In this document: piece after piece, positions 29,921-42,233 of the stretch
How positions within the stretch are numbered: the first letter of the stretch is position 1
How the letters are laid out: each line of letters starts with the position of its first letter
From: Xenococcaceae cyanobacterium MO_188.B32
Lineage (GTDB): Bacteria > Cyanobacteriota > Cyanobacteriia > Cyanobacteriales > Xenococcaceae
Reading direction: 5' to 3'
DNA length: 42,233 bases
Assembly: GCA_030065635.1 (NCBI GenBank)
Contig: JASJDJ010000046.1
Location: 1-42,233 of the forward strand
Made by a program: the position numbers and the translations under genes
Notes under the pieces: model-generated
Told to the model about the DNA's origin: nothing
What the model saw: the letters and a program-made list of their open reading frames with translations, nothing else
Database searches by the model: none

Positions 29921-31534
29921 CTAGGGCAAATCAAATAGTTTACTGTCAGGCAAATTGGTAACCGCTCTTTGCAACTCATTTAGAGATTGATTATAGTCAA
30001 TAATGGCACTCAGCAAGTTACCGCGAGCAGTAGTCAATCGTGTTTGAGAGTCAATAACGTCGGTTTGCGTCCCCACTCCTGCTTGGAAACGTAACCGTGC
30101 TAGTCTTAGACTTTCTTCTGCTAGTTCTAATGCTTTTTGCGAAGTCCCAATATTTTTTTGGTTAGCCTGAAGATTGTAGTACGCTTGTTCTGCTTGCAAA
30201 CGAATTTGGTTACGTTGGTTAGCAAATTGAGTTTCGTTAATCTCAATATCTGTTTTTGCTTGATCTGCACGAGCACTAGCTCTACCACCATCAAATAATC
30301 TCCAACTTAGCCTTGTGCCAAGACGATATTGATTTTCATCTTCGTCACCCCTTCTGGTGTCACCAAAATCAACAACCTGGTATTCATAGGCAGCAAACAA
30401 ACTTACTTGGGGTCTGATATCTGATAAAGCAATTTGTCTTTGCTGCGCGTTTAATTCTCTCAAAACTAATTGCTGTTCTAACTCAGCCCGATTTTTATAG
30501 GCAAGGACAATGGTTTCTTCTAGAGAAATAGACCAAACTCCTGCCTCTTCGATTTCATCAGCAGTTTGCAGTTCAACTTGTTGCCCTATACTAAGAGTTT
30601 GCGCTAATTGTCTTCTCGCTATATTCTGCTGGGCAAGAGCCCTAGTTAAAGCTTGTTGAGCATCAGCTAATTCTACTTCTGCACTTAAAACTTCAAATCT
30701 GGTGCCTAATCCTGCTTGTTCTAGCAGTTGAGCATCCCGCAGTGTTTGACTAGCATCTTCCACCGCTGCTTTTTGAATTTCCACTTGAGCATCAGCATCT
30801 TGCAAGCCGTAGTAGTCTCTAGTCGCTGCAAAACGAGTTTCTTCAGTAATTCGTTCTACATCCAACTCGTTAAAACGGAATTGTCTCTTAGCTCGTTTAA
30901 TATCCGCGCTTCTTCGTCCTCCTGCATAGACATCGTAACTAAGTTCTACAGTTGCTGTAACATCACCGGTTATCTCCTCAAAGTCATCAGTAACGTTATT
31001 AAGCCTATCTCTTGTAACGTTACCATTCTCATCTCTTGTCGATCTCTGACCATCCCGACCACGGGCCTCTAAATTAGCATCTAACTGAGGATATAAAGCT
31101 GCTCTTGCTTCTCTTAACTCTTGTTCAGATTGTTGCAGATTGAGTTTAGATACTTGTAAATCCTTATTATTACGCAGTGCTAATTCAATAGCTTGTTCGA
31201 GGGTAATTGGCTTATCGAGATTGATTTGAACTTCCTCAGGTTTAGTAGGGAAAATTAAAGGATTAGCATTGGGTTCTAAAGATTCTACGTTCGTTAATTC
31301 TGCTGGTGGTTCTGACTCTGTAGACTGGGATACTTGTACTGGTATTTGCTGGTATCTCATTCTATCATTCTGTCCGTCCTTAGTGACAGTAGGAAACTCA
31401 GCTAAAAGAAAATCTTTAGAACGATAGTAATCTCCAGGCTTGGGCAAATTTTCTGCAACGACCAAAGTTTCCCAGCTAAGAAAGATAAATGCACTTGCGC
31501 TTAATGCTTTCAGAAAGCTTTTATTCTTGTCCAC
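29921..31534 (-). CDS. tolC: TolC-type outer-membrane efflux protein
   Basis: 537 aa. It has a signal peptide (KALSASAFIFLSWETLVVA) and a proline-rich spacer to about residue 110. Two outer-membrane efflux (OEP) repeats follow, the first starting at PITLEQAIELALRNNKDLQVSKLNLQQSEQELREARAALYPQLDA and the second at SLEETIVLAYKNRAELEQQLVLRELNAQQRQIALSDIRPQ. The long helices (QLLEQAGLGTRFEVLSAEVELADAQQAL and LARLRFQAGVGTQTDVIDSQTRL) match the TolC coiled-coil barrel. TolC trimers form the outer-membrane channel for type I secretion and RND pumps. The start is GTG 31534, with GGAG upstream. It could serve the export or polymer-modifying cluster that begins 180 bases upstream, but it is not clearly in that operon. 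Confidence 0.92.
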   Translation of the reverse strand: MDKNKSFLKALSASAFIFLSWETLVVAENLPKPGDYYRSKDFLLAEFPTVTKDGQNDRMRYQQIPVQVSQSTESEPPAELTNVESLEPNANPLIFPTKPEEVQINLDKPITLEQAIELALRNNKDLQVSKLNLQQSEQELREARAALYPQLDANLEARGRDGQRSTRDENGNVTRDRLNNVTDDFEEITGDVTATVELSYDVYAGGRRSADIKRAKRQFRFNELDVERITEETRFAATRDYYGLQDADAQVEIQKAAVEDASQTLRDAQLLEQAGLGTRFEVLSAEVELADAQQALTRALAQQNIARRQLAQTLSIGQQVELQTADEIEEAGVWSISLEETIVLAYKNRAELEQQLVLRELNAQQRQIALSDIRPQVSLFAAYEYQVVDFGDTRRGDEDENQYRLGTRLSWRLFDGGRASARADQAKTDIEINETQFANQRNQIRLQAEQAYYNLQANQKNIGTSQKALELAEESLRLARLRFQAGVGTQTDVIDSQTRLTTARGNLLSAIIDYNQSLNELQRAVTNLPDSKLFDLP

Positions 31535-31713: not shown

Positions 31714-32469
31714 TTATAATTTTGCCAATAATTCAGATAGGTGTTGATTTAAAAACTTATATCCTCGACCATTAAGATGTACTAAATCCCGATAGTATTT
31801 TGGGGCACTTTCTTTTTGAGCTTTTATTAACTCATAAGCATCAAAAATAACCGCGTCTGGTTCCAGATTTTTGATATAGTTATTAACTTCAGTAATATCC
31901 TGCTTCATATAATCGATGGGCGACCAAAACAGTCTTTGTTGAACAGAAATAGTTTCATCTCCCAGGGGAAAAACAGTAGTTAAAATAACTTTGGCTCCAA
32001 TTTCTTTAGCTTTCTGGACAATTTGAGCAATGTTTTGCTGGCAATCTTTCACAATATCTTCTCTTGTCTTGGGAGATTTAGGCAGCATTCTCAGATCGTT
32101 GACTCCAACTTGGATAACAATTATTTCTGGATTTAAAACAGCCACATGTCGATCGAATCTTAAAAGTACTTGAGCAGAAGTTTGTCCACTAATACCCCGA
32201 TTAATAAACTCAAATTCTTGTAACTCAGGTTTTGCCCACTCCACTGCTCTAGAATCACCGAAAAAAACAACTTTTTTCTGATTTTCTCTAGTTTTCTCCG
32301 AAACTTTATCATCGCTATATCTTTTGAGACTAAGAGGATTTAAACTAGTAGCATACCAATACAGATAAACAAATTTTAACTCTTTATACAAAAACGAATT
32401 TACTAGCAAAGAAGCTAGTAAAAGTAAACTAATAATGATGATTAAGCCATACTGATTAATTAATTTCAT
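31714..32469 (-). CDS. SGNH/GDSL hydrolase, membrane-anchored
   Basis: 251 aa. One N-terminal membrane segment (residues about 8-27) precedes an extracytoplasmic SGNH hydrolase domain with all catalytic blocks: FFGDSRA (Ser73), NRGISGQ (Gly92), VGVNDLR (Asn124) and DLVHLNGRGY (Asp228, His231). The family includes esterases, acetyl-esterases and O-acetyltransferases acting on carbohydrates. It is the last of a same-strand run HTTM - MBOAT - SGNH-like - SGNH-like - SGNH with gaps of 27-76 bases, so it is likely part of an envelope polysaccharide acylation/deacylation module. Of the three it is the one with the standard GDSL signature. Confidence 0.85.
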   Translation of the reverse strand: MKLINQYGLIIIISLLLLASLLVNSFLYKELKFVYLYWYATSLNPLSLKRYSDDKVSEKTRENQKKVVFFGDSRAVEWAKPELQEFEFINRGISGQTSAQVLLRFDRHVAVLNPEIIVIQVGVNDLRMLPKSPKTREDIVKDCQQNIAQIVQKAKEIGAKVILTTVFPLGDETISVQQRLFWSPIDYMKQDITEVNNYIKNLEPDAVIFDAYELIKAQKESAPKYYRDLVHLNGRGYKFLNQHLSELLAKL

Positions 32470-32545: not shown

Positions 32546-33775
32546 TTAATTACTATTATTTTGACGATCGACTTTTGCTTTAATATCTCGTACTAATTTT
32601 ACTTCGTCGGGATGATTATTAGCCCATAATAGTCGATCGCGCTTTATTTTAGATAAATGTTGTTCGAGATTATCTGCTGTTAACAAAATCCCAAAATCTT
32701 TAGGTACACTTTCAGACTGATAGTCAAAAATGCGATCGAGGATTAGATTACCGATCGTGGGACTGTAGTGAGAGTTATCGACATAATTATCCATCTTTGT
32801 TTTAATTGCTTCAGTAGTGACATTATTAAACCCAGAAAAATCCCAAACTGGGGTTATTTTAACTAACTCTCGCTTCCATTGTTCAAAAATATCCCACTTA
32901 CCAGTTACTTTAATTGACTCCCATTGGGTAGCATGAGCAGGAGAAATAAATACTTTTAAATCTATGTTATTTTGGCGACACAGTTCGACAATTTTGACAA
33001 AATCAGACCAATATTGCTGAGAAAATTGATAATCGCTATGTAATTCAAAATAGAGTTTAATTGATTGAGAGAATCGCCATTTTGTTCCTCCGTCATTAGC
33101 ATTGCGATTGGGCATAAAACCATTTTCGCCATAAGAATTGTTTTGTCCTTCTGTTTTTAAGCTAGCAGCAATTGTTTCTTTACTAACATTAAAAGTATCG
33201 AGAGAAAAAAGAGCATTAACAGCATCAGTAGGGATTATATATTTTTTGGCAATTCTTTTTTCCTCAAAACTCGGCTGATTTTGTAGGGAAGAATTAAACA
33301 TAAAAAAGTCAATACCGAGAATGATTTGTCGTAAATCTGGTTGATTGGCAATTGCGTGTTCGATGTATCGTCTTACTTCATAGGCATTGGGTCCATTAAT
33401 TGCTAAATTATAAGCAAATTTATTATTTTTTATAGCTGGATGTTCTGGATTCAATCCTTGCTTAGTTCTAGATGAACCCATTATGATAACTTTAGGTTTA
33501 AGGCGGATAATATCCACAGCTTTAAACAAGCGATCGTTATTATCTTTTTTAATTTTTTCATGATTAACACCCCACCAATTGGGAGTATTAAACAAATCAT
33601 AGGGATCGATCGTCCAATTGAATAAGCCAACAGATAATATCGGGACAAAGGCTGTAGCAAAGAAAATCCAATTATAGACTTTAAATTTTTTCTGTCGATC
33701 GACTAAAATTTTCTTTTTTTGCCGTTGAGACTTACTGAGGGAATTATAAGAATCAGAAAAGTCGGAAATAGCCAT
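32546..33775 (-). CDS. SGNH-like membrane-anchored protein, paralogue A
   Basis: 409 aa. It has a basic N-terminus and a membrane segment (residues about 34-52, YNWIFFATAFVPILSVGLF). Next comes DPYDLFNTP, then an SGNH-like domain with IIMGSSRTKQGLNP (Ser101/Ser102 in the GDS position, here GSS) and DNSHYSP (Asp333-His336, DxxH). ILGIDFFMFN and EQWKRELVKITPVWDFSGFN are shared with the adjacent paralogue B. The C-terminal basic tail starts at PKDFGILLTADN. The serine and DxxH residues suggest an active esterase or acyltransferase outside the membrane, as in AlgJ/AlgX/PatB-type partners of MBOAT proteins. Substrate is unknown. It sits 33 bases after paralogue B and 76 before the GDSL protein. 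Confidence 0.75.
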   Translation of the reverse strand: MAISDFSDSYNSLSKSQRQKKKILVDRQKKFKVYNWIFFATAFVPILSVGLFNWTIDPYDLFNTPNWWGVNHEKIKKDNNDRLFKAVDIIRLKPKVIIMGSSRTKQGLNPEHPAIKNNKFAYNLAINGPNAYEVRRYIEHAIANQPDLRQIILGIDFFMFNSSLQNQPSFEEKRIAKKYIIPTDAVNALFSLDTFNVSKETIAASLKTEGQNNSYGENGFMPNRNANDGGTKWRFSQSIKLYFELHSDYQFSQQYWSDFVKIVELCRQNNIDLKVFISPAHATQWESIKVTGKWDIFEQWKRELVKITPVWDFSGFNNVTTEAIKTKMDNYVDNSHYSPTIGNLILDRIFDYQSESVPKDFGILLTADNLEQHLSKIKRDRLLWANNHPDEVKLVRDIKAKVDRQNNSN

Positions 33776-33808: not shown

Positions 33809-34945
33809 TTAATTATCCAGTTTAGCTTTAATTTTTCTAACTAAATTTACTTCCTCTGGATGCTCTTTTCGCCAAACTTCTCGATCGAGGCGAATTTGGT
33901 GTAAATGAGTCTCGATATTGTCCTGAGTAAGCAATATACCAAAGTCTTTGGGAACTCTTTCTGTTTGGAAAGATAATATGCGGTTGAGAACTAAATCTCC
34001 AACTTTGGGACTGTAATGAGAATTATCAATATAGTTTTCCATGCGATCGTTAATTAATTCAGTAGTTATACTGTTGTAACCAGAAAAATCCCACACGGGA
34101 GTAATTTTGACTACTTCTCGTTTCCATTGTTCAAAAGTTGACGATAATCCAGCTATATTCATAGCTTCGTACTGAGTAGCATGAGTTGGAGAAATAAAAA
34201 CTTTTATATCGATATTATTTTGTTTACATTTGTCGATAATAGCTTGAAGATTTTCTAATCTTGCTTGAGAAAGATTATACTTACCATAAAAACCCTCATA
34301 GCTTAAAAAATTAGTCAACCATCTCTTAAATCTACTAGTTTTAGGTTCTTTAGAGTTAGATTTATTTTGGTTGCTAAGGTTAGCATTAAAAGTTGTAATA
34401 CTTGCCTGTAGTGCATCTATTGATAGTAAGCTATTAATAATGTCTTTTACTACAATTTTTTTCCCCAATCTAGTTTCATCAAAATTTTCCAAATTTTTCA
34501 AATATTCATTAAACATAAAAAAATCAATACCTAAAATTACTTGTTTAATTTGAGATTGATTGGCAAGGGCATGATTAAAATAATGCATTACTTGATACAT
34601 ATTTGCCCCTGGTAATCCCAAATTATATGTTGAATTGGGATATTTTAAACCAGGATATTCTGTATTTAAGCCACTCATAACTCTAGATGAACCCAGAAAA
34701 ATTATTTTAGCTTCAATATAGTTAATTTCTGCTGCTTTAGAAAGCATTAAATGCTTTTCTCTCTCTGGTTTAAGTTGGTTGACTTTTTTAAAAGTTGGGC
34801 TGTAAAAATATAAATAAGGATCGATAACTAGATTAATAACAGCTACTAAACATAACGGCATTAAAGTGGATATAGCAAAAAATAAGTAAAAGTTTTGATA
34901 TTTTTTAGGACTGTACTTTGACAAAAAAATAGTTTTGAGCAACAT
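33809..34945 (-). CDS. SGNH-like membrane-anchored protein, paralogue B
   Basis: 378 aa. It is collinear with paralogue A: membrane segment at about residues 20-40, IDPYLYFYSP, FLGSSRVMSGLNT (Ser86/Ser87), NAYEV-like NMYQVMHYFNHALANQ, ILGIDFFMFNEYL, KVFISPTHATQYE, TPVWDFSGYN, and DNSHYSP (Asp307-His310) with a similar basic tail PKDFGILLTQDN. The two therefore arose by tandem duplication and then diverged. It lacks an internal segment present in A (about 30 residues). It follows the MBOAT gene by 27 bases, so it is the most probable periplasmic partner of that acyltransferase. Catalytic competence is inferred only from the motifs. Confidence 0.75.
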   Translation of the reverse strand: MLLKTIFLSKYSPKKYQNFYLFFAISTLMPLCLVAVINLVIDPYLYFYSPTFKKVNQLKPEREKHLMLSKAAEINYIEAKIIFLGSSRVMSGLNTEYPGLKYPNSTYNLGLPGANMYQVMHYFNHALANQSQIKQVILGIDFFMFNEYLKNLENFDETRLGKKIVVKDIINSLLSIDALQASITTFNANLSNQNKSNSKEPKTSRFKRWLTNFLSYEGFYGKYNLSQARLENLQAIIDKCKQNNIDIKVFISPTHATQYEAMNIAGLSSTFEQWKREVVKITPVWDFSGYNSITTELINDRMENYIDNSHYSPKVGDLVLNRILSFQTERVPKDFGILLTQDNIETHLHQIRLDREVWRKEHPEEVNLVRKIKAKLDN

Positions 34946-34972: not shown

Positions 34973-36454
34973 CTAAAACTGAAAATAAAGGAATTCAGAT
35001 ACACGATTGAGAGATAATAAACATAGACTTGCTGATAAACCAACCCAAGTAGCCCACCACCAAGTTGGCTTCATTTTCGCTAATAATGCTTGAGTATTAG
35101 GTAGCAACTTCACCCAAAATATTAAGCCAATTAACACTAAAATACTTATAGCTTTACTGCCACTGACTACTGGTAAATAATTCAATTGTGACCAACGCTT
35201 AAGTTCAATCCCAAAACTAGTTAGTAAAGCTAGTTTACCTTGAGGTTCACCAGGTAAGATAATTCCTTTCATGCCTACCATAGCCTGAATAATTTCTAAG
35301 CCTTCAGACAAAGTTTGTGCCCTAAACAATACCCAGCTAAAAACAACTACTAAAAAAGTAATACTCCAGCCTAAAAATGTTGGTAAAGGATTTTTTAATT
35401 TACGCCACCAATGATTAATTACTAAATAAACACCGTGTAAACCACCCCAAATTACAAATGTCCAACCAGCACCATGCCATAATCCACCTAATAACATGGT
35501 AGTTAGTAAGTTTACATAACGGCGTAGTTCTCCTTTACGGCTTCCTCCTAAGGGAATATAAAGATAATCTCGTAAAAAGTTAGATAGAGTAATGTGCCAC
35601 CGTCGCCAAAAATCACTAATAGAATTGGCTTTATAGGGTGAATCAAAATTAATTGGTAGGCGAATATTAAACATTAAACCCAAACCAATTGCCATATCAG
35701 AATAGCCAGAAAAATCAAAATAAAGTTGAAAAGTATAACTTAATGCACCTACCCAGGCTTCTATAAAAGTAACTTGGCTATAGTGGTTAAATACTGTAGC
35801 TACCCAAGGAGAAATATTATCGGCAATTAAAACTTTTTTGGATAATCCCAAACTAAATAGAGTCAAACCATAAGCAAAGTTTTTTTGTGAAAAAACAAAG
35901 TTTCTAAGTTTATGTAACTGAGGAATTAATTCATCATGGCGTAAAATTGGCCCTGCAACTAACTGAGGGAAAAAGACAACAAATAAGCTATAAGTAATTA
36001 AATCGTAATTAACTTCCTTGGTTTCACCTCGATAAGCATCTACTAAATAAGCAATTTGAGTAAAAGTGTAAAATGAAATAGCTAAAGGAAGAAATATTTC
36101 GTTGAGAGTAACATTAGCTTTGAACAAATCATTTACTGTAGACAAGAAAAAGTTAGCATATTTGTAATAACAAATGCTAGCCAAATTGATTCCTATACCA
36201 ATCCAAAGCAATATTTTTGCTTGTTTACTTTTCAATTTAGCCAAAGCGATCGCTCTACCCATTTGATAGTTAAATAAAATCGAAACTATCATTAAAATTA
36301 AATAGGGTGGATTCCAATAACCATAGAAAAATAAAGAAGTAATTAGTAGCCATATTTTGGCTGGCTTAATTAACTTTAATCTACCTAAAGTAAAGAAACC
36401 AATTAAAGTTATAGGTAAAAAGAGGAAGATAAAAACGTAAGAATTAAATAGCAT
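34973..36454 (-). CDS. MBOAT acyltransferase (AlgI/DltB type)
   Basis: 493 aa multi-pass membrane protein. Family signatures are YYKYANFF, SFYTFTQIAYLVDAYRG, FFPQLVAGPILRH, QLYFDFSGYSDMAIGLGLMF, SDFWRRWHITLSNFLRDYLYIPLGG (His287) and LLGGLWHGAGWTFVIWGGLHG. His327 in the last is the invariant catalytic histidine. MBOATs of this group carry acyl groups across the membrane onto envelope polymers (alginate, teichoic acid, peptidoglycan, other glycans). The C-terminus SEFLYFQF has a tyrosine (Tyr490), like the acyl-accepting tail described for DltX. The genes downstream encode SGNH-like partners, and an HTTM gene lies 70 bases upstream. The polymer is unknown. This is one of two MBOATs in the window. 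Confidence 0.92.
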   Translation of the reverse strand: MLFNSYVFIFLFLPITLIGFFTLGRLKLIKPAKIWLLITSLFFYGYWNPPYLILMIVSILFNYQMGRAIALAKLKSKQAKILLWIGIGINLASICYYKYANFFLSTVNDLFKANVTLNEIFLPLAISFYTFTQIAYLVDAYRGETKEVNYDLITYSLFVVFFPQLVAGPILRHDELIPQLHKLRNFVFSQKNFAYGLTLFSLGLSKKVLIADNISPWVATVFNHYSQVTFIEAWVGALSYTFQLYFDFSGYSDMAIGLGLMFNIRLPINFDSPYKANSISDFWRRWHITLSNFLRDYLYIPLGGSRKGELRRYVNLLTTMLLGGLWHGAGWTFVIWGGLHGVYLVINHWWRKLKNPLPTFLGWSITFLVVVFSWVLFRAQTLSEGLEIIQAMVGMKGIILPGEPQGKLALLTSFGIELKRWSQLNYLPVVSGSKAISILVLIGLIFWVKLLPNTQALLAKMKPTWWWATWVGLSASLCLLSLNRVSEFLYFQF

Positions 36455-36524: not shown

Positions 36525-38399
36525 TTATCGATCCGTATTTTTAAAAGTACAAGATTGTTGCCAATGATGTTGCTTATCAATATCTTGAATTTCGCCAGGA
36601 GGAACCGTATTTTCTGAGATAAAATAAATATCTAGATTTTCTAGTTGTTTTTTGTCCTGATGTGTTTCGTTCCATTGTTGACAAAGATATAAACCATAGT
36701 AAGGATAAAGTTTTTTACCTATATAGCGATTGAGATTAATAAAATAGGTACGCCATTGCATATTTTTGTATAATTTATTTCTTTTTTTTATGGTTGGCTT
36801 GTCCCAATTAATCATCCTGTCATTATGTAGTAAATCGACTTGACTTCCATCTTTTAGATTGCCAACAATTACGTGCCAGCCATCATCTCTAGGTGGATTG
36901 GGGGCGAAAATACTCCAAGATTGGTCTAATCTAGTAAGTTGCCCTAACCAAGTAATTTTTTGTGCCGTACGACTATTAACAACTCTGCGTAAACTTTGAC
37001 TGATTTTAGTGGGCGATCGATGGAAAATATAACTATGGGCAAAACTGGTAAGATTCCAAAGAGTGACTAAACCGAGTAGAAGAAAAGTAAATAAATTAAA
37101 TAACCAGCCAGGATTAACTTCTAGGGAAGTATATTTAAAAGGAGCAGTAAGTTTGCCAGCAGTACGACGATTACTCGCAATAGTTTCGTAAATTTTTGTG
37201 CCTAATGCCATCAAAGGTTTTAATCTGAGAATAGGCGCAAGAAACCAGAGAAGAGGGGAAAGACTAACTACATAAATAATTCCCGACCATTTGAAATATC
37301 TGTTTCCCTGCCAATCTTCTACTACCCAAGAATTATATTTTTCCATGTCTTCATAGACAGAAGGATTTTCTTGAGCTACTAGTAACTGTGTTCTGGGTAA
37401 AATCAGAAAAGTACGCAAAAAATGAACTACTTTTTTACAAAAACCACAGTTACGGTCATAATTAATCTTTAAACTTGCTCTTTCTTGGGTATTGGTCTTT
37501 TTATCTAACCAATCCCATACATTGGTAGGAATAAAAGCCAACCAGGCGAATATACACAAGGCAGGAAAAATACCAATTTCAAAAGATAACCCGAAACTAA
37601 AATGCAGCAGAATAAAAGAAACTATGGCAACGCAACGGAAAAAGTTAGTACGGAAGGGAATAAATAATAGTAACGCTCCCAACCACTCAAACCACAATGC
37701 GCCAAAAGTCATCGTTCTGAGTAAAGGAGTCAAACTAAGCAGAAATTGTCCAAAACCTGTAGCATACTGGTCGAAATTAAGAGCGTAATAGACAGCACTA
37801 CCTTCTTGCGACCAAATCGGACTTTGATGCTTAAACCAAGCGGAAAACATATAGATATAGCACAGTTGAATAATAAAACCAACTGTGGCACCAGATAAAA
37901 CTCGTTTTGGTAGTGGTTTGCTAGAAGTATTCAAAGCCCTATCGACAGAGTAACTAGCCCCCAGAGGCAAAAACATCGCCCAAAATAAAAGTGCCCTTAA
38001 AGTATCGTCTCCCGCAAAAAGCAAAGCAGGATTGCGGTTATGGAGAGAGATAATCATTGCCCAAGAAGCAATAGTAGCAAATCTAGTCCGATAGCCAATC
38101 AATAATAAAAGGGCAAAAAATAGAGCAAAACCAAATAATAAAGCTTGAACAAAAGGTTCACCACTAAGGAGATGAATTGACCAATACCAGGGTTTAAGGA
38201 ATTGTTCGATTAGGGCTGTACGGGGTAAAACCCCATAATCGCTGTAGTGTGACCTAATATCGCCAAAACGAATAATAAGATCGGCAATTATTACTAATGC
38301 TAATCCCATACGGAATAAAGCCAGCGATCGCAAATCGAAACCAAATATCTCTTCTAATTTGTTCCGAAATTTTCCCTTACTATCCTTCCCTATCACCAT
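36525..38399 (-). CDS. HTTM-DCC fusion membrane protein
   Basis: 624 aa. The first ~290 residues are an HTTM domain, the membrane fold of vitamin K-dependent gamma-carboxylase relatives (FGFDLRSLALFRMGLALVIIADLIIRF, SIHLLSGEPFVQAL, GDDTLRALLFWAMFLPLGASYSVD, several membrane segments). Then a DCC/DUF393 thioredoxin-like domain follows at LKINYDRNCGFCKKVVHFLRTF (CxxC at about residues 316-319). After further membrane segments comes a C-terminal soluble domain rich in basic and aromatic residues (DQSWSIFAPNPPRDDGWHVIVGNLKDGSQVDLL). Its true substrate is unknown; carboxylase activity cannot be claimed. It lies between a type II quinone reductase gene (upstream) and an MBOAT gene (downstream), all in one orientation with short gaps. 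Confidence 0.85.
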   Translation of the reverse strand: MVIGKDSKGKFRNKLEEIFGFDLRSLALFRMGLALVIIADLIIRFGDIRSHYSDYGVLPRTALIEQFLKPWYWSIHLLSGEPFVQALLFGFALFFALLLLIGYRTRFATIASWAMIISLHNRNPALLFAGDDTLRALLFWAMFLPLGASYSVDRALNTSSKPLPKRVLSGATVGFIIQLCYIYMFSAWFKHQSPIWSQEGSAVYYALNFDQYATGFGQFLLSLTPLLRTMTFGALWFEWLGALLLFIPFRTNFFRCVAIVSFILLHFSFGLSFEIGIFPALCIFAWLAFIPTNVWDWLDKKTNTQERASLKINYDRNCGFCKKVVHFLRTFLILPRTQLLVAQENPSVYEDMEKYNSWVVEDWQGNRYFKWSGIIYVVSLSPLLWFLAPILRLKPLMALGTKIYETIASNRRTAGKLTAPFKYTSLEVNPGWLFNLFTFLLLGLVTLWNLTSFAHSYIFHRSPTKISQSLRRVVNSRTAQKITWLGQLTRLDQSWSIFAPNPPRDDGWHVIVGNLKDGSQVDLLHNDRMINWDKPTIKKRNKLYKNMQWRTYFINLNRYIGKKLYPYYGLYLCQQWNETHQDKKQLENLDIYFISENTVPPGEIQDIDKQHHWQQSCTFKNTDR

Positions 38400-38430
38400 A
38401 ATTCCCCCTACTATTTCTCCCTCATCTCCC

Positions 38431-38478
38431 TTGCTCCTCTGCTCCCCTGCCCCTCTGCTCCCCTGCTCCCCTGCTCAT
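38431..38478. repeat. Octamer C-rich tandem repeat at the NDH-2 stop
   Basis: Six consecutive 8-base units, TTGCTCCT, CTGCTCCC, CTGCCCCT, CTGCTCCC, CTGCTCCC and CTGCTCAT, lie on the plus strand. They overlap the stop codon of the type II NDH gene (38475-38477). On the transcribed strand they read GGGAGCAG-like and contain four GGGG tracts, a canonical G-quadruplex pattern. Confidence 0.85.
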
Positions 38479-39647
38479 TTAAGATGCAGTAAATTTTTTA
38501 ATACTTGCCAACGATGGCGAAAAGTAGGTAAACGAAAAATATAGATTAATCTTCGTATTAACCCAGCCAAAGAACCTGTTAAATTGATACCAAAGCTAGA
38601 AACTATCGCTACTCCTTTACCTAAAGTAAGCATATCTCCAAGGTGTAGATAGCGAAAATGTTTCAAAGATTTACCTTGCAGTGTCAATTTTAAATTTTTT
38701 GCCAATAAACTTGCTTGTTGATAGGCAGCTTGTGCTGTAGCTGGTACGATTTGAGTCTTACTCTGACGAATTTCAGCTATGTCTCCTACCGCAAAAACTT
38801 CTCGATAGTCTATTAGTTGAAGAGTAGGATGAACCAAAATTCGTCCTTGATTGTTTTGTTGACAATTGAGATTTGCTACCCAGTCAATGTTTTCTGTACC
38901 TGCTGTCCACAAGACTAAATCTACTGGATAATCGATTAAATTGTCATTACAAAAGAAAGTAATTTGCTCTTGAGTAATTTCTTTGAGACCACTTTCTAAA
39001 TAAACTTGAATATTACGATTTTTTATGGCTTGATAGGCTGCTTTCTTAACTCCTTTAGCAAAATTTCGGAGAATTTCTGCCCCTCGGTCAATAATAATTA
39101 CTTCTGCTCTGGGAGACAAGCGATCGCTCACTTTACAAGCTAACTCTACCCCGTTAGGTCCAGCACCAACTACCGCCACTCGTAACTTTTGTCTTCCTGA
39201 AGCTTCTAATAAACGCAATCTTTCTTGTAGGTTTTCTGCATCAAATATACTCCTAAAAGTCAAAGCATGAGCAGCTAATCCAGGGATATCGATCCATCTG
39301 GTTTTTTGCCCTACTGCTAAAACTAAATAATCATAAACTAATGAACTACCCTGTTCTAATTGCACCTGACGATTATCTAGATCGACTCCTTTGGCTTTAT
39401 CTTGACGAAGATCGATCTTTTTCCCTGCCAATAACTTTTGATAAGAAGGAGCAATTTCCCAACGCTGCAATTCTCCCGTCAAGATTTCGTATAATAAAGG
39501 AGTAAACAGAAAATTATTTTTTGGTTCTACTAGAGTAATCTGACACTTGCCTGATTTGAGCCAGCTAAAATCAGCCAGGTAAAGGGCTGTATAAAGACCG
39601 CCAAATCCCCCTCCTAAGATACAAATTTTAATCGGTTCATTATTCAT
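38475..39647 (-). CDS. ndbB: Type II NAD(P)H:quinone oxidoreductase, NdbB/NDC1-like
   Basis: 390 aa flavoprotein. The FAD-binding motif is ICILGGGFGGLYTAL (residues 8-22) and a second dinucleotide motif is VAVVGAGPNGVELACKV. LVLWTAGTENIDW and VFAVGDIAEI complete the NDH-2 pattern. The ELQRWEIAPSYQKLL segment and the C-terminal tail NLTGSLAGLIRRLIYIFRLPTFRHRW resemble, from memory, the cyanobacterial NdbB/plant NDC1 branch, which reduces naphthoquinone precursors in phylloquinone (vitamin K1) synthesis. The enzyme would pass electrons from NAD(P)H to a membrane quinone without pumping protons. Its stop codon overlaps an octamer repeat, and the HTTM gene follows after 75 bases. Symbol is a best guess. 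Confidence 0.8.
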   Translation of the reverse strand: MNNEPIKICILGGGFGGLYTALYLADFSWLKSGKCQITLVEPKNNFLFTPLLYEILTGELQRWEIAPSYQKLLAGKKIDLRQDKAKGVDLDNRQVQLEQGSSLVYDYLVLAVGQKTRWIDIPGLAAHALTFRSIFDAENLQERLRLLEASGRQKLRVAVVGAGPNGVELACKVSDRLSPRAEVIIIDRGAEILRNFAKGVKKAAYQAIKNRNIQVYLESGLKEITQEQITFFCNDNLIDYPVDLVLWTAGTENIDWVANLNCQQNNQGRILVHPTLQLIDYREVFAVGDIAEIRQSKTQIVPATAQAAYQQASLLAKNLKLTLQGKSLKHFRYLHLGDMLTLGKGVAIVSSFGINLTGSLAGLIRRLIYIFRLPTFRHRWQVLKNLLHLK

Positions 39648-39766: not shown

Positions 39767-40687
39767 TTACTGAACAAGTGGTTTCATTTGCTCAACCAAC
39801 TCTCTTGCTCTAATTTCTCTTGCTTTGGGCAATAAATGATAGTGAGTATCAGCAAATAAATTGGGATCGGTCTTGATATTTAAAGATTCTGGTTCGTAAA
39901 TCACAGGCGCAATTTTAGAGAGTATGTAAGCCGTTTTCTGGACATTAGCTTTAGTTCGCGTTCCTGTACTGCCATATACCCAAGGTAAAGATAGTACTAG
40001 CTTTCCTCCTTTTGCTTCTACTTCTTGGCGAAACTGCCAAATTCTTTCGGCTGCATGACGAGAAATAGGTTGATTAATGGGCAATTGCCACCAGTCTTGT
40101 TGTCTTTCCTTAACTGTAGTGGGATCGCCCCGCTTAGTTAGGGGATCGGAATAGTAACCAGTCATTTCTCCTTTAGTAGCTATGTCTACACTGGATTTAG
40201 TTGCTCCTCTTAGAGTAGGTATTCCCAGCAACAAAACATCCTGGACAAGTTGTTTGGCTGGTACGCCTCCTAATCCTGGTTTACCAATAGCTACCCCAAA
40301 AGGACCAGATCGATCGCCCAAACCATCAGGATCTAATAGTAATAAATATTCGGGAATCAGAAGCACTATATCCCCTGGGCGTACTTGGTCGATGACACTA
40401 GGTAAAATTACATCTAAACCAATGGGGCCATCTAAACCAAGATTTACAACAGGAATGCCCAAACCTTGCTCAATAACATCAGAATTAATTGTATAATGCG
40501 CTCCAGAGCCACCAGTAATCAGTAATCTTCCATTTTCTTTTATTTCTTCTGCCCTAGCTATTTTATGGAAGTACATTGCTCGTAGCCAACTTAGTTCGCC
40601 ACCATAAATGACGTTATAGACAAAACCTAACGACCAAGCAATACCAGCAGCCATAAACCAAGGGGCAAGTTTAATCGGTTTCCACAT
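39767..40687 (-). CDS. SGNH-like partner of the second MBOAT
   Basis: 306 aa. One N-terminal membrane segment (about residues 8-28) is followed by an extracytoplasmic domain. LLITGGSGAHYTINSD (Ser61 in the SGNH block I position, flanked by glycines) and FADTHYHLLP (Asp280-Thr-His282, the DxH motif of AlgJ/AlgX-like acetyltransferases) are the likely catalytic residues. Its ATG overlaps the TGA of the upstream MBOAT gene by one base (ATGA), so the two are translationally coupled. This pairing argues for a two-component O-acyl transfer system: the MBOAT moves the acyl group across the membrane and this protein transfers it to, or removes it from, the polymer. The sequence is not closely alike to the 32546/33809 paralogues. 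Confidence 0.75.
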   Translation of the reverse strand: MWKPIKLAPWFMAAGIAWSLGFVYNVIYGGELSWLRAMYFHKIARAEEIKENGRLLITGGSGAHYTINSDVIEQGLGIPVVNLGLDGPIGLDVILPSVIDQVRPGDIVLLIPEYLLLLDPDGLGDRSGPFGVAIGKPGLGGVPAKQLVQDVLLLGIPTLRGATKSSVDIATKGEMTGYYSDPLTKRGDPTTVKERQQDWWQLPINQPISRHAAERIWQFRQEVEAKGGKLVLSLPWVYGSTGTRTKANVQKTAYILSKIAPVIYEPESLNIKTDPNLFADTHYHLLPKAREIRARELVEQMKPLVQ

Positions 40688-42168
40688 CAGAACTCAAAAT
40701 AAATAAACTCAGAAGGTGTATTGGCAGCCAAGAGAACAGTTAAACCCAGTAAAACTGGAGATAACCAAGGAGAAAGAAGCAATTCATATTCAAACTGTTG
40801 TCGCCAGATAGCCAGATGTTCTAGTAGCAATACCGCGATCGCCAGAACTAAAATAACTATTAAAGCAGTGCCTTGATTGATACTATAGGAACTAAAGACA
40901 GCACCTAAATTAGCAAAAGAATAAGCCCAAGGGGTAACTAAAGTTTTTAATTTCAGTAGTAAACGGCTAATATCTGTATCCATAAAGAAAAGACAGCCTA
41001 AATTTACTGCTGCAAAAGTCAATCCCCAAGAAACAAATTGAGGTTGAGACACATACTTACCTGTCAAACGATGAAATGGTCTACCCAAATATCGTAAAAC
41101 TAACAATAAAGCACCGTGATAAGCTCCCCAAATAATAAAATTCCAGGCTGCCCCATGCCAAAAACCAGATAAGGTAAAAGTGATAAACAAGAAAAATGCT
41201 GCCCATTGTTTTTTCGACCCCATCAAAGGTAAAAAGACATAATCTCTAAACCAAGTACTCAAAGTAATGTGCCATCTACGCCAAAACTCATTGATACTTT
41301 GGGATGTATAGGGAGCGAGAAAATTAACTGTTAATCTAATCCCTAAAATTCTGGCCAAACCTAGAGCAATAAAACTGTATCCTGCAAAATCAAAATAGAT
41401 TCTCAGGGTAAATAAAAAGGCATTGAACCAGATAAACCAGGGATTAAGACTTTGAGTTAAATCGATATAAGGAGAAATATTATCTGCTAGGACAAATTTC
41501 ATGAACATTCCTAGCGACAGCCAGCGAAACCCCTCATAAAAATTATCAACTGTAAACTTAAACCGAAATGATTCTATTTGCGGAAAAAGACTAGCGCGAC
41601 GTTCAATTGGACCCGCCACAATTTGCGGAAAAAATGCCACAAAATTGATATAGTCAACAAAGCCAATGGGTTTCTTTTTCCTCGCTTTTAAAGAGTCAAC
41701 TACAAAAGCAACCATCTGGAAAGTATAGAAAGAAACCCCAGGAGGAATTCGATTGGGAACGAGAGAAACATTACGGTTTGCCAGGGAAACAATATAACCT
41801 TGTTGCCAATTATCTGGGATATTAACAATCAAACCAATAACATCATCAACAAAAAAAACTAGGTATTTAAAATAGGCTAAAACCGCAACATCGAAAATTA
41901 TTAATAAAGTAGCAATTAGTTTAGCTTGTCCCCCTTGGCGACGCAGCATAAACTGCACCAGAACATAATTAAAAATAATTTCAAAGAAGAAAACAACAAA
42001 ACTAGAAGCACTAGCATTAAAAAAAAGCAGCATCGATAAAGACATTAAACCGATGCTGTCATAAAATCCATGCCAAAGATTAACAGACTTACCAATAGAT
42101 CGAACCGTAAAAAACGGAATACTAAATAGCAGTAGTATCCACCAAAAAGAAAAGTCTGAATAATTCAA
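40687..42168 (-). CDS. MBOAT acyltransferase (AlgI/DltB type), second copy
   Basis: 493 aa multi-pass membrane protein with the family motifs PPGVSFYTFQMVAFVVDSLK, FFPQIVAGPIERRASLFPQI, LRIYFDFAGYSFIALGLARILG, NEFWRRWHITLSTWFRDYVFLPLMG (His300) and LSGFWHGAAWNFIIWGAYHG. His338 in the last is the invariant catalytic histidine. The C-terminus SEFIYFEF ends in the same aromatic pattern, with tyrosine at position 490, as the MBOAT at 34973. The body sequences are otherwise divergent, so the two enzymes probably serve different polymers or partners. The stop overlaps the start of the SGNH-like partner gene. A palindromic repeat lies 37 bases upstream of its start. Confidence 0.92.
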   Translation of the reverse strand: MNYSDFSFWWILLLFSIPFFTVRSIGKSVNLWHGFYDSIGLMSLSMLLFFNASASSFVVFFFEIIFNYVLVQFMLRRQGGQAKLIATLLIIFDVAVLAYFKYLVFFVDDVIGLIVNIPDNWQQGYIVSLANRNVSLVPNRIPPGVSFYTFQMVAFVVDSLKARKKKPIGFVDYINFVAFFPQIVAGPIERRASLFPQIESFRFKFTVDNFYEGFRWLSLGMFMKFVLADNISPYIDLTQSLNPWFIWFNAFLFTLRIYFDFAGYSFIALGLARILGIRLTVNFLAPYTSQSINEFWRRWHITLSTWFRDYVFLPLMGSKKQWAAFFLFITFTLSGFWHGAAWNFIIWGAYHGALLLVLRYLGRPFHRLTGKYVSQPQFVSWGLTFAAVNLGCLFFMDTDISRLLLKLKTLVTPWAYSFANLGAVFSSYSINQGTALIVILVLAIAVLLLEHLAIWRQQFEYELLLSPWLSPVLLGLTVLLAANTPSEFIYFEF

Positions 42169-42204
42169 TTAGCTGCTTTCCTCCTTTTTCCAAGTAACGA
42201 CAAT

Positions 42205-42233
42205 TGTAGGGACGGTTCGCGAACCGTCCCTAC
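42205..42233. repeat. Palindromic repeat at the right edge, second full copy
   Basis: The half-arm TGTAGGGACGGTTCG and its reverse complement fill 42205 to the last base of the window; the final A of the 30-bp palindrome is cut off. Compared with the copy at 23981, both arms carry the same compensating change (GGGGCG versus GGGACG), so base pairing is preserved. Covarying arms point to selection on, or copying of, the hairpin. Confidence 0.92.

Follow-up and report, generated by a model that had tools for sequence, protein, structure and literature searches.

In the cyanobacterium Xenococcaceae cyanobacterium MO_188.B32, contig JASJDJ010000046.1 (all 42,233 nucleotides of which are here called the window) encodes a quinone reductase of the NDH-2 family (390 aa) and, after 75 bases on the same minus strand, a 624-aa protein in which a DCC domain is embedded in a membrane region of HTTM type (HTTM-DCC). 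We find that the two genes recur together in several cyanobacterial orders within an operon for fatty-acyl transfer, that the reductase belongs to a clade of its own, and that HTTM-DCC is predicted to share the fold of human vitamin K-dependent gamma-carboxylase (GGCX), with an invariant lysine at the position of its catalytic base. Our preferred reading, to which we give a probability of about 0.45, is that the NDH-2 paralogue reduces a naphthoquinone and the carboxylase-like enzyme consumes it, acting on the product of an MBOAT-SGNH acylation pathway fed by an acyl carrier protein (ACP). Gene order, co-occurrence, the separate NDH-2 clade, the fold match and the conservation of the lysine (Lys190) are computed results; from them we infer the reaction, the quinone and the acceptor.

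Gene neighbourhoods were compared in two sets that draw partly on the same genomes: 40 regions extracted around matches in the searched genomes, and the best 80 loci among 426 confirmed stretches of a named genome collection (hereafter the named loci). The recurring order is fatty acyl-AMP ligase (FAAL), acyl-CoA dehydrogenase (ACAD), ACP, MBOAT, SGNH, NDH-2 and HTTM-DCC; in some cases a second MBOAT and DUF1574-like genes come next. Among the 80 HTTM open reading frames (ORFs) longer than 400 aa at the named loci, counting those at loci cut by contig ends, 32 have an NDH-2 gene upstream on the same strand within 4.5 kb, and in 27 of these it lies no more than 300 bases away; the pairing is also present in 14/40 extracted regions. 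FAAL and ACAD are found upstream of 29/80, accompanied by NDH-2 in 22 and by SGNH in 25. The orders with an adjacent NDH-2 include Nostocales, Coleofasciculales, Oscillatoriales, Leptolyngbyales, Geitlerinematales, Aerosakkonematales and Pleurocapsales. An earlier note on this DNA, written from the sequence, had described the adjacent pair, whose coordinates, lengths and strand we confirm, and had linked it to acylation genes downstream; the pairing proves not to be peculiar to the window genome, and acylation genes lie upstream as well. Pairing by chance is ruled out by the neighbourhood surveys together with the co-occurrence across genomes described below. The searches made of open-access papers found no description of this operon.

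Ten loci were surveyed at which the operon-type NDH-2 lies apart from its genome's full-length HTTM-DCC gene. The reductase gene is kept with MBOAT and/or SGNH plus ACAD and ACP at three of them (L256, L257, L259), follows MBOAT at two (L255, L258), accompanies SGNH alone at two (L262, L269) and stands alone at one (L261); at L260 (genome G443) and L271 (G440) it adjoins a second, shorter HTTM gene, with the full-length HTTM-DCC operon elsewhere. The HTTM-DCC gene of some split-operon genomes sits behind an SGNH gene (L090, L099, L158). Retention of both halves in one genome favours a shared pathway over passive neighbourhood. In genome G426 (locus L109) the MBOAT, SGNH, NDH-2 and HTTM-DCC genes are all fragmented, and the genome retains a single NDH-2 match at E 1e-100.

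Other surroundings of HTTM-DCC genes were also seen. Three loci from Xenococcaceae and Hyella records (L118, L119, L127) have no acyl operon upstream, and three regions (L080, L082, L085) have an upstream gene of cluster c8, ABC-transporter-like by eye. Relatives at 36-39% identity occur in records labelled Chloroflexi, Dehalococcoidia, Dojkabacteria, Gracilibacteria or simply "bacterium" (L186, L189, L191, L193-L196); no NDH-2 of the operon group was found near them, contig ends being close by in several.

Membership of the window reductase in the NDH-2 family is seen in a Pyr_redox_2 match of 151.4 bits, two dinucleotide-binding GxGxxG motifs, homology to solved NDH-2 structures (its closest relatives in the PDB are NDH-2 enzymes, FSP1 among them) and an AQxAxQQ stretch, which we take to be the NDH-2 quinone motif. 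In a tree of 107 NDH-2 proteins, 40 HTTM-linked rows belong to a single clade with 48 members (support 96), and the second large clade, with 49 members (support 100), has no such row. This tree includes one very long outgroup row (L004); in a second tree, with 13 rows added and L004 dropped, the split is retained with support 89 for the operon clade. Both trees come from quick searches, have SH-aLRT as their only support measure and contain some long branches. The NDH-2 proteins of G045, G149, G204 and G303, genomes in which HTTM-DCC was not found, and one of G082, fall outside both clades in the second tree. The widespread clade is presumably NdbB, a label that we infer, the trees holding no named reference sequence; comparison of ten neighbour proteins at seven of its loci showed a HAD-type hydrolase in three and differing genes otherwise, and gave no label. 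The operon NDH-2 is a separate clade, sister to the widespread one, with which it shares a branch against a distant paralogue outgroup (presumably NdbA/NdbC, again our labels). The assignment of the window reductase to the NdbB/NDC1 type in the earlier note therefore has to be revised as regards NdbB: insofar as the widespread clade is rightly called NdbB, both trees rule out that the operon NDH-2 is NdbB itself. The kinship matters for function, as NdbB of Synechocystis (Slr1743) reduces prenyl naphthoquinones for phylloquinone synthesis (PMC9414918, PMC7133116); the operon enzyme differs in its own clade and in its co-occurrence with HTTM-DCC.

Co-occurrence was counted in a phylum-wide sample of 386 genomes, 31 of which have an HTTM-type match of any kind, and in 60 near relatives of the window genome, 13 of which have an HTTM-DCC match. 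By criteria chosen after the data had been seen, 19 of the 31 were taken as carriers; left out were G190 (41% identity and without CxxC), G426 (with a fragmented gene) and ten genomes whose matches are distant or partial (G071, G145, G154, G277, G300, G362, G366, G394, G408, G411), while G257 was kept despite a 382-aa ORF piece at 41% identity, because it adjoins NDH-2. The operon-type NDH-2 is present in 19/19 carriers so counted and in 5/367 other genomes: G035, G339 and G361, for which the tree decides, and G116 and G250, for which kinship does. If all 31 HTTM-matching genomes are counted the figures are 19/31 versus 5/355, and with G257 removed from the carriers they are 18/18 versus 6/368. 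No NDH-2 match at E 1e-100 was found in 237/386 genomes; among the other 149 the contrast is 19/19 versus 5/130. Six genomes from the genus that includes G144 (G146, G276, G278, G294, G353, G398) were placed in the operon clade on the basis of profile scores and kinship, and genomes with a single match were scored as widespread type unless the tree disagreed, as for the window genome (operon type only); Fisher values for co-occurrence take no account of genome relatedness. In genera g41, g58 and g32, each of the three HTTM-DCC-bearing genomes has two NDH-2 matches at E 1e-100, and each of the eight genomes that lack HTTM-DCC has one. Some NDH-2 match at E 1e-60 is present in 57/60 near relatives, and the operon type in 9/13 carriers (by profile scores, in two pieces, in G036) versus 1/47 others (G035); it is present in 15/20 carriers chosen from the named collection.

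Two genomes may be noted for their NDH-2 content. The window genome (G000, 97% complete) has the operon copy alone at E 1e-60, the widespread NdbB-like gene not being found, and its closest relative, G001, has both types.

An AlphaFold2 model of HTTM-DCC built from a 60-sequence alignment has pLDDT 91.0 and pTM 0.91. When searched against the PDB with Foldseek, human GGCX took the first 16 places (best E 2.8e-5), and it did so again with VIA-align 2, at Z 15.2-24.0, the first unrelated entry having Z 6.7. The best VIA-align 2 match covers 384 aligned residues, model residues 8-616 on GGCX 32-490, so that the predicted fold is shared in the helices and in part of the C-terminal domain. Profile alignment to the sequence of GGCX gives a score of 46.1, against 30.1 for the best of 60 shuffles and 21.5 for the reversed sequence, and sets Lys190 on Lys218. 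In GGCX this lysine is the base that deprotonates vitamin K hydroquinone; it is a helix 5 residue, immediately preceding the Cap loop by which the pocket is shielded from the lumen (PMC12589487). The ring-pocket positions Val210, Phe286, Phe294 and Phe299 are occupied by Ile182, Leu265, Phe273 (F 26, L 27 and M 7 of the 60 rows) and Phe278 (F in 53/60), and Trp223 by Ser197 in the window protein, Trp being found there in 46/60; Met401 lies outside the profile-aligned range. The comparison with gamma-carboxylase that the earlier note had called for thus finds the fold, a lysine that aligns with the catalytic one and, at several quinone-pocket positions, hydrophobic residues. Sequence searches of the PDB found none of this: a profile search with the HTTM-DCC alignment had no match, phmmer with the window protein had two (E 0.28 and 1.4), and a single distant HTTM relative gave chance matches only, so the link to GGCX is carried by the predicted structure and the pairwise profile alignment.

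Lys190 is present in 60/60 aligned rows, including five without CxxC, as is Arg122 in 60/60, and His266 and Asn123 are each found in 58/60. Cys573 and Cys617 are both present in 53/60 and both absent in 5/60, the other two rows having Cys in a misaligned tail. The DCC1-like domain (Pfam PF04134) scores 33.4 bits against a cut-off of 27.8, and this part of the model resembles (Z about 4 to 6) N-terminal domains of glutathione S-transferases (GST), SspA and glutaredoxin-like chains. The CxxC motif that the earlier note saw near residue 316 is indeed in this domain, its exact position being Cys318/Cys321. As for the HTTM domain claimed there, the window protein has no match to Pfam PF05090; of four other relatives scanned, L107 and L091 have none either and L108 and L110 (41.7 and 41.8 bits) pass the cut-off, and the predicted fold matches that of GGCX. 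By GGCX topology, the loop between helices 8 and 9 that holds the DCC domain is probably cytoplasmic and the C-terminal domain outside. The further proposal, that the CxxC domain passes electrons, gains no support as a relay to the quinone site, because by this topology the domain would face the cytoplasm and not the end of helix 5 that carries Lys190. CxxC is missing in nine relatives (4/21 rows of a first alignment and 5/60 of a later one), none of which adjoins an operon-group NDH-2, and the shorter HTTM genes found beside NDH-2 at L190 and L260 have it.

Four HTTM proteins (L091, L100, L107, L108) align across the DCC region but have lost CxxC, and no operon-group NDH-2 is present in the regions taken around them.

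The acyl branch of the operon belongs among the MBOAT-SGNH systems, with an acyl-tyrosine hexapeptide on the MBOAT and an SGNH partner. A C-terminal FxYFxF is present in 52/52 MBOAT ORFs longer than 450 aa, and the attachment motif in 31/31 ACPs, at the named loci. The protein labelled SGNH had no Pfam match; its predicted structure (pLDDT 87.8) matches SGNH hydrolases at Z 13.3 and PatB at Z 11.7, and Gly59-Gly60-Ser61-Gly62 is invariant in 36 sequences, with Asp280 and His282 nearly so. The system resembles DltABCD and PatAB in the hexapeptide-bearing C-terminus and the SGNH partner, and Dlt in that its carrier protein is served by a dedicated adenylating enzyme. PatA hands the acyl group on via the tyrosine of its C-terminal hexapeptide, whereas Dlt uses a carrier protein and has the hexapeptide on a separate microprotein; other MBOAT-SGNH systems are said to be without a carrier protein (PMC12148441). 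The cyanobacterial operon combines a carrier protein with the hexapeptide on the MBOAT itself, not on a DltX microprotein, and is not a Dlt system: the window MBOATs score 160.8 and 175.9 bits with TIGR04091, whose cut-off is 375. It differs from both Dlt and Pat in the fatty-acid-type ligase, the ACAD and the NDH-2/HTTM-DCC pair.

Table 1. Features of the co-directional gene run in the window (positions within the 42,233-nucleotide stretch)
Feature	Coordinates	Strand	Remarks
NDH-2-type quinone reductase, operon-specific clade, sister to the widespread NdbB-like clade	38475..39647	-	
HTTM-DCC protein, 624 aa, GGCX-like predicted fold	36525..38399	-	
HTTM region, residues 22-302, transmembrane helices 1-8	37494..38336	-	helices from model; two relatives over Pfam cut-off
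Lys190 codon, aligned with GGCX catalytic base Lys218	37830..37832	-	lysine in 60/60 rows
DCC (glutaredoxin/thioredoxin-like) domain, residues 313-413, between helices 8 and 9	37161..37463	-	Pfam, model
CxxC motif, Cys318-Cys321	37437..37448	-	
C-terminal soluble domain, residues 455-624, mostly inside the GGCX-matched range	36528..37037	-	carries Cys573 and Cys617
SGNH-fold protein, GGSG...DTH motifs, conserved operon member	39767..40687	-	no Pfam match
MBOAT acyltransferase of the conserved operon, DltB-like, C-terminus FIYFEF	40687..42168	-	
Second MBOAT acyltransferase, DltB-like, C-terminus FLYFQF; downstream block, in part of the lineages	34973..36454	-	
DUF1574-like protein, GSS motif	33809..34945	-	Pfam score below cut-off
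DUF1574-like protein, GSS motif	32546..33775	-	Pfam score below cut-off
GDSL lipase/acylhydrolase, downstream block	31714..32469	-	
TolC-like outer membrane protein, last gene of the co-directional run examined	29921..31534	-	

In the window the genes of Table 1 form one run from 42168 to 29921 (MBOAT, SGNH, NDH-2, HTTM-DCC, MBOAT, two DUF1574-like genes, GDSL, TolC-like), with intergenic gaps of -1 to 179 bases. The contig ends 65 bases past the start of the first MBOAT (42168-42233). The ACAD gene of the window genome, preceded by two FAAL-type genes, ends at most 12 bases from the end of another contig (locus L268), and the ACP gene, for which no search was made in this genome, may fall in an assembly gap.

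We can envision the pathway as follows, from the functions of the families involved. FAAL would load a fatty acid onto the dedicated ACP, where the ACAD-like enzyme may desaturate it; if the Dlt/Pat mechanism applies, the MBOAT, through its C-terminal acyl-tyrosine hexapeptide, and SGNH would then pass the acyl group across the membrane onto an acceptor. At the cytoplasmic face, the NDH-2 paralogue would use NAD(P)H to reduce a membrane naphthoquinone, by its kinship to NdbB most likely phylloquinone, to the quinol. HTTM-DCC would bind this quinol, whose oxidation could drive a base-driven or redox reaction on the pathway product, and its cytoplasmic CxxC domain may conceivably be a redox input or regulator of that step. 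A parallel exists in human cells, where FSP1, an NDH-2, supplies vitamin K hydroquinone to GGCX (PMC9929328). Both systems pair an NDH-2 family reductase with a GGCX-fold enzyme; the bacterial pair is encoded in one operon with fatty-acyl genes, and the likeness is one of genes and predicted fold. HTTM-DCC also departs from GGCX in its DCC domain between helices 8 and 9, and, with no propeptide substrate known for it, in the place of its gene in an acyl-transfer operon. A more specific version would be a bacterial vitamin K cycle, in which the dedicated NDH-2 makes phylloquinol, the GGCX-like enzyme oxidizes it with O2 to make a strong base, and the base takes an acidic proton from the exported, desaturated ACP-derived acyl chain, carboxylating or otherwise modifying it; in this full form we regard the proposal as quite improbable.

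Several observations weigh against the preferred reading. On the structural side, the Foldseek TM to GGCX is 0.21-0.40, the VIA-align 2 rmsd is 5.6 A and the probability of the profile alignment is 71%. GGCX Lys217, Asn290, Asn159 and His160 are not kept in that alignment, the glutamate-binding Asn159/His160 pair falling on Ala129/Gly130 in helix 4, where the alignment is unsure. By eye, a lysine is also found at the Lys190 position in a distant HTTM protein (L045), and may thus mark the fold, not the reaction. On the genomic side, the operon-type NDH-2 was not found in four of the 13 near-relative carriers (G007, G010, G016, G044; the assemblies of G010 and G016 are 78% and 76% complete), in five of the 20 named carriers (G429, G430, G434, G439 and G441, in which HTTM-DCC itself is broken) or in 12/31 HTTM-matching genomes of the phylum sample, including G366, whose protein (35% identity) has both the DCC domain and CxxC. 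At the named loci, 8/33 HTTM ORFs with an upstream MBOAT likewise have no operon NDH-2. Since some carriers lack it, this reductase is not indispensable; the widespread paralogue could replace it.

These absences, together with nearest kin that are NdbB-like enzymes, would suit a reading in which NDH-2 adjusts the quinone pool as an ordinary NdbB-like duplicate, its place in the operon being due to shared expression only. We consider this unlikely: the separate clade, the co-occurrence with HTTM-DCC at the genome level and the contrasts within g41, g58 and g32 speak against it. Another division of labour would have NDH-2 handle the electrons of the ACAD, directly or via the quinone pool, while HTTM-DCC, without quinol chemistry, acts separately, as a factor for the maturation or thiol redox of exported proteins (SGNH or the acceptor). 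At L256, L257 and L259 NDH-2 does stay with the MBOAT/ACP/ACAD genes when HTTM-DCC is elsewhere, and SGNH directly precedes HTTM-DCC at loci without NDH-2 (L157, L158, L164 and others); the resemblance of the DCC domain to glutaredoxins and GST N-domains and the joint retention or loss of Cys573 and Cys617 also fit a thiol factor. But the electron donor of NDH-2 enzymes is NAD(P)H and not an ACAD flavin, and the second GxGxxG is retained in the operon NDH-2; the conservation of Lys190 even in rows without CxxC argues for the membrane site, not the thiols, as the core function. This explanation seems to us rather unlikely.

HTTM-DCC might, finally, do no redox chemistry at all, being a scaffold or transporter-like part of the acyl-transfer machine with an inherited GGCX fold. 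SdpB and linaridin-cluster proteins share the HTTM domain, and the relative L108 matches the SdpB model below its cut-off. To our knowledge, SdpB has no DCC domain and no NDH-2 or acyl-transfer genes are found with it. The same is true of the corynaridin-cluster HTTM protein as far as the account of that cluster in PMC9927463 describes it, and such HTTM proteins, named export or maturation factors with no known reaction, set a precedent for a scaffold, as does the fact that the substrate-binding residues of GGCX are not visibly retained in HTTM-DCC. The strict conservation of Lys190 and Arg122, the near-invariance of His266 and Asn123 and the linkage to a quinone reductase make a mere scaffold distinctly improbable.

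We know of no established role for bacterial HTTM (carboxylase-fold) proteins; operon structure and co-occurrence now link one of them with a quinone reductase and an acyl-transfer pathway, in a group of organisms that produce their own vitamin K1. A quinol-dependent function thereby becomes directly testable in culturable cyanobacteria. MBOAT-SGNH acylation, too, gains a version that is fed by a carrier protein, uses fatty acyl groups and has a redox branch. Bacteria may run vitamin K-type chemistry; if the vitamin K cycle outlined above is true, it would bring vitamin K-dependent carbanion chemistry to lipid or glycan modification, in organisms that produce vitamin K1.

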